NCBI GenBank assembly: GCA_902767725.1
Contig: CACXIM010000043.1
Span: forward strand, 1 to 40,264
From: an uncultured Bacteroidia bacterium
GTDB lineage: Bacteria; Bacteroidota; Bacteroidia; Bacteroidales; F082
Reading direction: 5' to 3'
Length of the DNA stretch: 40,264 bases
Shown here: piece by piece, positions 35,983 to 37,511 of the stretch
Numbering within the stretch: the stretch's first letter is position 1
Layout of the letters: the number at the start of each line of letters is the position of its first letter
The notes under the pieces: generated by a model
Databases searched by the model: none
The model's input: the letters and a program-made list of their open reading frames with translations, nothing else
What the model was told of the DNA's origin: nothing
Translations under genes and position numbers: made by a program

Positions 35983-36182
35983 GTGTGTCGAAGACACACC
36001 ATTCTATTTACCCCACATATCGTGTGGGGAGGACACCTATCGAGGCATCGCTATGGCGTGTCAGAGACACGCTACTAGGGTGTATCGAGACTGACATAGC
36101 ATACTGATGTAGTAGAGTGGGACTGCTCAGATGACCCCACACTGCAGTGTGGGGTATATAAGATAGCGGGTCTTCGACACGC
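35983..36182. repeat. Array of alternating short hairpins (left of tRNA-fMet)
   Basis: Five inverted repeats in 200 bases. Type A: GTGTGTC-GAA-GACACAC (35983-35999), GCGTGTC-AGA-GACACGC (36056-36072) and an imperfect copy at 36166-36182. Type B: CCCCACA-TATCG-TGTGGGG (36011-36029) and a perfect 22-base palindrome at 36134-36155 with arms ACCCCACACTG and CAGTGTGGGGT. Type A and B alternate, joined by TATTTAC-like linkers. The same units recur at 37229-37439. They do not code for protein. Confidence 0.85.
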
Positions 36183-36235: not shown

Positions 36236-36310
36236 TGGTAGCGGGGGGAGGATTCGAACCTCCGACCTCCGGGTTATGAGCCCGACGAGCTGCCTCTGCT
36301 CTACCCCGCA
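36236..36310 (-). tRNA. Initiator tRNA-Met (anticodon CAT)
   Basis: A 75-base tRNA on the minus strand including the encoded CCA. Anticodon CAT is at 36276-36278. Initiator marks are present: the 1:72 pair is mismatched (T:T), the anticodon stem has three consecutive G:C pairs (GGG...CCC), and A11 pairs with T24. The T arm GGAGG-TTCGAAT-CCTCC is intact. Confidence 0.93.
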
Positions 36311-36415: not shown

Positions 36416-37228
36416 ATGGCACATAAAGCAGGCTATGTCAACATTATAGGACGCCCGAATGTGGGTAAGTCCACCCTCATGAATCAGCTCGTCGGCGAGA
36501 AAATCTCCATCATCACCTCGAAAGCACAGACCACCCGCCACCGTATCTTGGGCATCGTCAACGGCGACGACTTCCAGATCGTTTTCTCCGACACGCCCGG
36601 CATCATCAAGGACCCGGCCTACAAGATGCACGAGGTGATGAACCAGTTCGTCAACGTGGCCCTCATCGATGCCGACCTCATCCTCTTCGTCGTCGTTCTC
36701 ATCAATAAGATCGACCTCTCCACCCAGGAACAAGTTGAACAGGCCGTAGAACAATGGCGAGAGACCTTACCTAACGCCACTGTGTTTCCGCTTTCGGCGC
36801 AATACAATGCCAACGTGGAGTTCATCTTCAAGCAAATCTTGGAGAAACTGCCCGAATGCCCGCCCTATTTCCCCAAGGACGAACTCACCGACCGCTCGAT
36901 GCGTTTCTTCATCACCGAGATCATTCGCGAGAAGATATTGCTCAACTACCAACAAGAAATCCCCTACTCCGTACAAGTCGAGGTTGAAAGTTACGAGGAG
37001 ACCGAGCACCGCATCCATATCCGCAGCGTCATCTATGTGGCCCGCGACTCGCAGAAGGCCATCATCATCGGCAAAGGCGGCAGCGCCATCAAGAAACTCG
37101 GCATGCAGGCCCGTACTGACATTGAGGAGTTTACAGGAAAGAAAATCTTCTTGGAACTGTTCGTCAAGGTCGACAAAGACTGGCGCGACAATGAAGCTGA
37201 GCTTAAGCGTTTTGGCTACGAAGCCTAG
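36416..37228 (+). CDS. era: GTPase Era, with an apparent internal deletion
   Basis: Era binds 16S rRNA and acts in 30S ribosome assembly. The 270-residue protein starts [20 protein letters not shown] (36416). It has G1 GRPNVGKST (12-20), the G2 region KAQTTRHR, G3 DTPG (59-62), G4 NKID (97-100), a G5-like SAQYN, and a KH domain with VARDSQKAIIIGKGGSAIKKLG. Length is short: other Bacteroidetes Era proteins are about 293 residues. After the strand DADLILFVV (86-93) the sequence passes straight to VLINKID, so about 25 residues that normally form a helix between G3 and G4 are missing, with the frame kept. Either the gene is really altered or the assembly lost bases near 36686-36700. Confidence 0.88.
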   Translation: MAHKAGYVNIIGRPNVGKSTLMNQLVGEKISIITSKAQTTRHRILGIVNGDDFQIVFSDTPGIIKDPAYKMHEVMNQFVNVALIDADLILFVVVLINKIDLSTQEQVEQAVEQWRETLPNATVFPLSAQYNANVEFIFKQILEKLPECPPYFPKDELTDRSMRFFITEIIREKILLNYQQEIPYSVQVEVESYEETEHRIHIRSVIYVARDSQKAIIIGKGGSAIKKLGMQARTDIEEFTGKKIFLELFVKVDKDWRDNEAELKRFGYEA

Positions 37229-37439
37229 CGTGTCGAAGACACGGTATCCTATTTACCCTACACTCGCAGTGTAGGGGCCATCGACCTCGCACCACGTGTC
37301 GAAGACACGACACTCCACTTACCCTACACTCGCAGTCAGGGGTCCTCGACCTCTCACCGCGTGCCGTTGGCACGCCACAGCAGACTCAATCCGATGATGT
37401 AGCGTGTCTCCGACACGCCATGTACGAGCATTGGCTCGT
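37229..37439. repeat. Array of alternating short hairpins (right of era), with a 66-base tandem unit
   Basis: The 316-base gap between era and der holds seven inverted repeats, starting at the base after the era stop. Type A (CGTGTC-GAA-GACACG) is at 37229-37243 and 37295-37309, with variants at 37359-37375 (GCGTGCC-GTT-GGCACGC) and 37402-37418 (GCGTGTC-TCC-GACACGC). Type B (CCCTACACT-CGC-AGTGTAGGG) is at 37256-37276, with a degenerate copy at 37322-37342. A further hairpin ACGAGC/GCTCGT is at 37424-37439. Units starting at 37229 and 37295 are 66-base direct repeats. I see no gene in the gap. Confidence 0.88.
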
Positions 37440-37511
37440 GGTTCCATCCTCCCGCAGCATGTGAGGTAAACAGAATGGCATACTTTCAGCACACTGAATC
37501 AGAAAATTGTG

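Follow-up and report, generated by a model that had tools for sequence, protein, structure and literature searches.

The stretch of DNA analysed here (the window, 40,264 nt) comes from an uncultured Bacteroidia bacterium of the Bacteroidales family F082 (GenBank assembly GCA_902767725.1, contig CACXIM010000043.1) and is contig C43 in a genome bin of 3.06 Mb that is fragmented into 153 contigs (79.6% complete, 5.8% contamination). It holds two arrays of short hairpins, of which array 1 (35983-36182) is flanked by a 739-amino-acid reading frame and tRNA-Met, and array 2 (37228-37494) by era and der. Both are built from a twin-hairpin unit, in which hairpin B is joined through a linker to hairpin A, and from solitary A hairpins; copies of the same unit flank the gene of a small HUH/Y1 transposase (TnpA) elsewhere in the genome. 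The features are listed below, with E values from a covariance model of the unit and z scores of the DNA fold.

35983..36036, minus strand: twin-hairpin unit 1 of array 1 (in minus-strand reading, A 35983-35999, linker, B 36011-36029); E 3.2e-13; z -4.93, 0/200 shuffles as good
36056..36072, minus strand: solitary A hairpin (form II), loop CTC, GTAG at the 5′ foot on the minus strand; z -3.87, 2/200 shuffles as good
36128..36182, plus strand: twin-hairpin unit 2 of array 1, in the opposite orientation to unit 1 (B 36134-36155, linker, A 36166-36182, the A stem with one mismatch); E 1.2e-12; z -5.24, 1/200 shuffles as good
36236..36310, minus strand: tRNA-Met (CAT) adjoining array 1, outside the element; ARAGORN and Rfam tRNA
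36416..37228, plus strand: era GTPase gene, a neighbour outside the element; Pfam MMR_HSR1 and KH_2
37228..37283, minus strand: twin-hairpin unit 1 of array 2, beginning at the era stop codon; E 3.9e-15; z -3.94, 1/200 shuffles as good
37294..37349, minus strand: twin-hairpin unit 2 of array 2, a tandem copy at 66-nt spacing; E 4.6e-11
37359..37375, no strand assigned: A-type hairpin with the covaried stem GCGTGCC-GTT-GGCACGC
37402..37418, plus strand: solitary A hairpin (form II), GTAG at the foot; partial model match, E 0.058; z -4.20
37441..37494, plus strand: possible degenerate forward unit (weak) at the right end of array 2; E 0.057

Two familiar kinds of hairpin were tried and rejected. 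Rfam at the gathering score gives only two tRNAs in the window. One array hairpin passes a scan for intrinsic terminators (a stem plus T run), the region as a whole scoring 2 against 1.3 when shuffled. The Era protein of the window (36416-37228) is shorter than that of relatives, about 23 residues of the GTPase domain being absent in frame through a deletion or an assembly fault.

An earlier note on this DNA had described array 1 as alternating hairpins in the order A, B, A, B, A, and this order was recovered in 35983-36182 in clear excess over shuffled sequence: the pattern GTGTCNNNGACAC (up to one mismatch) occurs 9 times in the window where 1.29 are expected, with 0 of 100 shuffles reaching 9, and CCCCACAN{0,12}TGTGGGG has 2 against 0.00 expected. 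The five hairpins are real and beyond chance. The linker TATTTAC, taken in the note to be shared, is exact in one copy, but the other, inverted copy reads TATATAC (one mismatch). The comparison with a composite element like the bacterial interspersed mosaic elements (BIMEs) is supported. The ends of array 1 form a 33-nt inverted repeat (82% complementary), the two units standing face to face with a solitary A between them, so that the whole array can fold on itself (z = -6.34 as single-stranded DNA, 0/200 shuffles as good); array 2 carries its two units in tandem with a 66-nt period. However, A and B are not two independent hairpin types, since an alignment of 20 copies shows them linked as B-linker-A, with the linker conserved and unpaired. 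The family unit consists of B (CCCCACAC..GTGTGGGG), the linker T(A/T)AATAGGAT and A (GCGTGTC-TTC-GACACGC). The second form is the solitary A hairpin, mostly with the loop TCC and with GTAG at its foot in 10 of 11 cases, where the last G of GTAG may pair in a 7-bp stem; GTAG is not present in the twin units.

Compensatory variation of the stems, also proposed from the window alone, was borne out by 140 distinct units from this genome and its relatives, in an alignment fitted to the model and so somewhat favouring it (alignment A4 holds 150 of 173 matches, drawn from 67 chosen loci). Pairing cells make up 94.3%, compared with 84.2% in shuffles and 20 to 57% with a slid partner. Two-sided changes affect 9 of the 11 pairs; cells of this kind number 197, compared with 57.3 in shuffles (0/500). 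The covarying pairs comprise all seven of A and two of the four modelled for B. The weakest measure is that of further pair types (20 vs 17.5, 8/500 shuffles), and one B pair is unpaired in 38 of the 140 units. The structure of the unit is under selection.

The covariance-model search called for by the earlier note found 24 full units on 13 contigs of this genome at E 1.1e-10 or better, followed by a gap to E 0.0014. Four of them lie at the TnpA locus of contig C42, six at that of C82 and 14 elsewhere, including the four of the window, and they stand singly, in tandem or as inverted pairs. The GTGTCNNNGACAC pattern has 31 sites genome-wide against 2 for a reversed-pattern control, and two of them, one on C1 and one at C11:23474, stand apart from the arrays and look like chance. 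The expected intergenic preference was also found: 18 of 24 units touch no open reading frame (ORF) of at least 120 amino acids, and we judge the six overlaps to be ORF-calling artefacts (a touch at the era stop codon, antisense frames, a frame running off a contig and an over-long start), and therefore read all 24 units as intergenic. For five of the 24 an ORF 3′ end lies 4 to 12 nt before the unit, and for three a 5′ end is 9 to 16 nt away; the units as a whole take both orientations with respect to neighbouring ORFs. These data bear on whether the units might be a structured RNA family of the host, a riboregulator or small RNA spread by recombination, which the covariation, with its inclusion of some G-U pairs, would suit; however, the units have no Rfam match, the tested unit folds well on either strand and either orientation to the neighbouring ORFs is used, and we regard such an origin as highly improbable.

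Two further groups of hairpins were noted in this genome. Three units at contig ends (L010 1-120, L012 3018-3187, L013 3170-3289) have a nearly identical flank, which we take to resemble the end of an rRNA operon, although Rfam found no rRNA there. On C11 (L009 4220-4660), about six solitary A hairpins, some of them degenerate, form a tandem array of about 80-nt period near tRNA-Cys.

The sites of the two arrays were compared among 30 era loci of the genus, taken from the 54 genomes with a match, and a unit is present at E 0.001 or better in 5 of the 30. Array 1 occurs in G000, G114 and G153, and array 2 in G000, G144 and G145, the G144 locus stopping short of the array 1 site. Array 2 of G145 contains a single unit in place of the tandem pair of the window. 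In the sister species G092, der starts about 40 nt past the era stop codon with no array 2 and with both flanks matching the window, and G156 is similar. At the array 1 site G092 has the end of the 739-amino-acid gene and the tRNA in common with the window, while the sequence between them differs and holds no array 1. G092 has its own TnpA and units elsewhere. The hairpin of G145 (L182) at the place of window 37359-37375 has the loop AAC against GTT, as if the palindrome had been inverted in place.

The position of the units just past genes raises the question of whether they are transcription terminators or protectors of mRNA 3′ ends, selected at gene ends and only incidentally linked to a transposase. 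Array 2 begins at a stop codon, array 1 lies eight bases past one, several units of the genome follow ORF 3′ ends as given above, and the hairpins are strong, one of them scoring as terminator-like. However, that one is the only hairpin of the two arrays to pass the scan, the other hit of the region lying beside the tRNA, the same gene ends exist in G092 without either array, and the units crowd round TnpA in inverted orientation. We consider this explanation improbable.

Nine Y1_Tnp matches were found in the genome, and two of them, on C42 and C82, lie between units. In both, reversed units lie upstream of TnpA, a solitary A follows right past its stop codon and a forward unit lies downstream, with additional units of opposite orientation farther out (L070 to L072 being covered in part). 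The two copies are 95% identical and have the same kinds of neighbouring genes. Since a single copy is listed for 21 of the 24 close-TnpA genomes, one guess is that the second here derives from a sister species binned together with this one. At one TnpA locus (L014 4390-7113) the gene adjoins that of a PIF1-like helicase with HRDC and HTH_40 domains, and the eight closest named TnpA loci have one upstream-neighbour group in common.

TnpA is a protein of 150 amino acids with the HUH motif DHIH and the Y1 motif YIKKQKEHH, scoring 69.7 bits against Pfam PF01797 (cut-off 23). Residues H53, H55, Y113, Q117, H120 and H121 are invariant in all 36 sequences and D52 is kept in at least 90% (L164 was omitted from this alignment, A3, for a stop in frame). 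The predicted structure (mean confidence, pLDDT, 90) has its closest folds in the TnpA proteins of ISDra2 and IS608 (E about 2e-8 to 4e-8), and E. coli TnpAREP (4er8) matches it at E 9.7e-6. The earlier note had anticipated an IS200-like transposase of the RAYT kind (REP-associated tyrosine transposase, REP being the repetitive extragenic palindrome) between the same hairpins. A transposase so flanked exists on C42 and C82, but it is not a RAYT in the strict sense, because the NP motif is missing after its tyrosine (YIKKQKEHH vs YIYINPVKHGW in E. coli) and it scores 22.5 bits on the RAYT model NF047646, below the cut-off of 80. A profile comparison with the E. coli RAYT gave a probability of 2.8%, and the IS200 family model NF033573 gave 50.4 bits, below its cut-off of 55. 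The WQ motif was not found either, W93 being followed by G, S, A or T in 15 sequences, whereas five other Y1 proteins of this genome do have WQ. By its motifs, TnpA fits TnpA-Y1 subclass 1.2.

Those further Y1 transposases (L017, L018, L019, L020 and L023, on C3, C11, C13, C99 and C21) carry Y---Q--HH together with WQ. Near several of the five genes lie palindromes of the types CCCCGTAGGGG, GCATCCC-GTA-GGGATGC and CCCCTTCGGGG, which suggests more cognate hairpin families.

We then considered 149 genomes of the family, this one included, from 16 genera. The covariance model detects units in 39 of the 149, all belonging to a single genus, that of the window. A close TnpA (best match of at least 63% identity) is present in 24 genomes, counting G144 (covered only from residue 45) and G115 (one stop) and excluding fragments in G014 and G137. 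Units occur in 22 of these 24 and in 17 of the 125 others (Fisher p 9.5e-14, a statistic that ignores kinship). The A-stem pattern has 214 sites against 37 for the control in 19 genomes whose TnpA has at least 70% identity, 7 against 8 in the five genomes of a clade at 64% identity, whose flanking stems differ, and 30 against 18 in 24 genus members picked for having no close TnpA; these counts by TnpA class indicate, kinship being ignored, that the hairpin type follows the transposase type. Across the five genomes of this 64% clade, hairpins of the CATGYC type number 15, of which 7 coincide with the TnpA contig position; each of the other 11 genomes has 0 to 2. A single GCATCTC hairpin occurs in 3 of 8 genomes, always next to TnpA. 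The linker pattern was found in none of four genomes (G121, G093 and two more), with an allowed gap one base too short for the copies of L081.

The arrangement seen on C42 and C82 recurs around more distant TnpA proteins, of which the best 80 of at least 520 relatives (53-98% identity) were compared. The closest named relatives listed are Bacteroidales bins, including RUG358 and bacterium F082, the latter placed by NCBI in Candidatus Alcium. Strict twin hairpins in non-ORF DNA number 44 in 35,934 nt near TnpA versus 2 in 56,550 nt far from it (95 in 107,390 nt versus 7 in 585,778 nt with coding DNA included), and one shuffled copy has 0. A relaxed scan finds twins in 57 of the best 80 loci, a figure open to chance pairs and in which some pairs are counted once per strand. 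TnpA has a unit within 1 kb in 46 loci. Where there is an upstream unit (39 loci), the nearest one is inverted in 35; where there is a downstream unit (35 loci), the nearest one is forward in 31. Taking every unit in that 1-kb range, upstream units are inverted in 51 cases and not in 13, and downstream units are forward in 41 cases and not in 14. Several distant members keep the B stem and a linker of the type TTATTGAGATT, TTACTGAAATT or TTATAGAGGGC with a varying A stem (GCCTC, GCTGCC, GCGTGCC).

A layout of this kind could also be expected of a true insertion sequence of the IS200/IS605 type, in which TnpA and its flanks move together and the solitary units are leftovers, decayed solo ends resembling miniature inverted-repeat transposable elements (MITEs). 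TnpA stands at a tight distance from the nearest unit (35-99 nt downstream; 42-110 nt upstream in 32 of 35 loci) and in many contexts across clades (48 groups among 73 upstream flanks), its predicted fold is nearest to insertion-sequence enzymes, and 10 of the 24 units of this genome sit at TnpA loci. Nevertheless, at a threshold of at least 55% identity it has one copy in 21 of the 24 close-TnpA genomes and two in three, and its position is shared among close relatives (in groups of 8, 8 and 7 loci). The ends of IS200/IS605 elements are unlike each other and lie on one strand, whereas the flanks of TnpA are inverted copies of one unit, and 14 units lie away from TnpA. We find such an insertion sequence unlikely, though less so than a role at gene ends.

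Among known systems the closest is that of REP and RAYT (REPtrons), which, as described in parts of Nunvar 2010 (PMC2817692) and PMC8266576, likewise has a small Y1 gene between inverted palindromic repeats, non-autonomous intergenic copies and a low transposase copy number. RAYTs cut REP single strands near the hairpin, at a CT dinucleotide in known cases. In contrast to REP/RAYT systems, TnpA here bears Y---Q--HH with neither the NP motif nor a passing RAYT score, and the repeat is a two-hairpin unit with a conserved linker whose twin form has no GTAG. The arrays resemble the BIMEs and REPINs (REP doublets) described in the same papers in having an inverted doublet that forms a long hairpin (array 1), tandem copies and a mosaic with a third hairpin, but each half is here a two-hairpin unit and the host belongs to the Bacteroidales. 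The solitary A, with its GTAG foot, short stem and 3-nt loop, is like the GTAG-tagged palindromes in the portion of Di Nocera 2013 (PMC3733652) that lists GTAG repeats for Proteobacteria, Cyanobacteria, Chloroflexi and PVC (Planctomycetes, Verrucomicrobia, Chlamydiae) and CGTC-tagged ones for Bacteroidetes; unlike those, the twin units bear neither tag at the A foot. For the transposase, Table 1 and the subclass 1.2 section of Quentin et al. (2018, PMC6006769) give DH[IV]H (DHIH in our TnpA), Y---Q--HH, about 150 amino acids, Bacteroidetes hosts and low copy number, as here, and list the subclass as having no REP sequences, whereas hairpin units flank our TnpA, in whose branch the conserved W precedes G, S, A or T in place of the Q of the subclass motif WQ. 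Subclass 2.6 (TnpAREP) of that survey, where described, also comprises Bacteroidetes Y1 proteins with nearby structures that are atypical and without GT[AG]G, but has YIH[QN]NP and a median of 179 amino acids, and the protein of this genome with a motif of that type (C47, L025) is different from TnpA. A search of the literature by title and abstract returned no report of REP-like repeats with subclass 1.2 proteins, and within the literature so searched we take the association to be new.

We therefore read the arrays of the window, with good though not complete confidence, as clusters of non-autonomous REP-like elements whose unit is B-linker-A and which are a likely substrate of the low-copy HUH/Y1 TnpA. 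On this reading the hairpin family is a small mobile DNA repeat, scattered through intergenic DNA of some uncultured bacteria of gut and rumen, with TnpA as its probable mover. What was observed is that copies occur at many places, that the stems covary, that units flank TnpA in inverted orientation and co-occur with it, and that one site is occupied in one sister species and empty in another. The system works like REP/RAYT, though its transposase is of a different lineage and its unit has two hairpins. From this anatomy we infer binding, cleavage and ongoing movement by TnpA. The unit would fold on single-stranded DNA, for example on the lagging-strand template, TnpA would bind the folded unit through hairpin A and the linker, and its tyrosine would nick it. 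The nicked unit would then be inserted at another site, frequently right behind a gene, where it may be tolerated, and arrays could arise through local doubling.

Several observations weigh against reading the arrays as mobile REP-like elements moved by TnpA, to begin with the fact that mobilisation by TnpA is drawn from anatomy. The copy number is modest (24 units, 10 of them at the two TnpA loci), and strict twin hairpins lie near only 46 of the best 80 relatives. Two genomes, G122 and G072, carry TnpA yet have no match to the model, and 17 have units but no close full TnpA; G014 and G137 among them hold the TnpA fragments, and in the others the units may be relics or the bins may have gaps. 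The pattern of G022 has 5 copies, all within about 430 nt beside TnpA, and since the hairpins of G022 and of the 64% clade hardly extend beyond the TnpA locus, dispersal is not general, being shown only for the TnpA clade near that of the window's genome. For array 1, the empty site has a match on its left flank only, because the intervening sequence of G092 is not common to both.

A wider possibility, which we put forward tentatively and at somewhat less than even chances, is that subclass 1.2, IS200-like and without the NP motif, represents a second, independently domesticated lineage of single-strand transposases with its own REP economy across the Bacteroidales. The two-hairpin cassette would then perhaps be a minimal single-strand transposon, in which B and the linker are common to much of the branch and the fast-changing A sets specificity. 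In that case REP/RAYT biology would have arisen at least twice. Subclass 1.2 TnpA is without an assigned DNA partner in the sections of its defining survey cited above (PMC6006769), and the twin hairpins are a candidate substrate. If true, REP-like palindromes and low-copy single-strand transposases are linked in more than one lineage, giving an independent comparison of why hosts keep them, and a class of hairpin-rich intergenic stretches in Bacteroidales, possibly misread as terminators or regulatory RNAs, would be explained.
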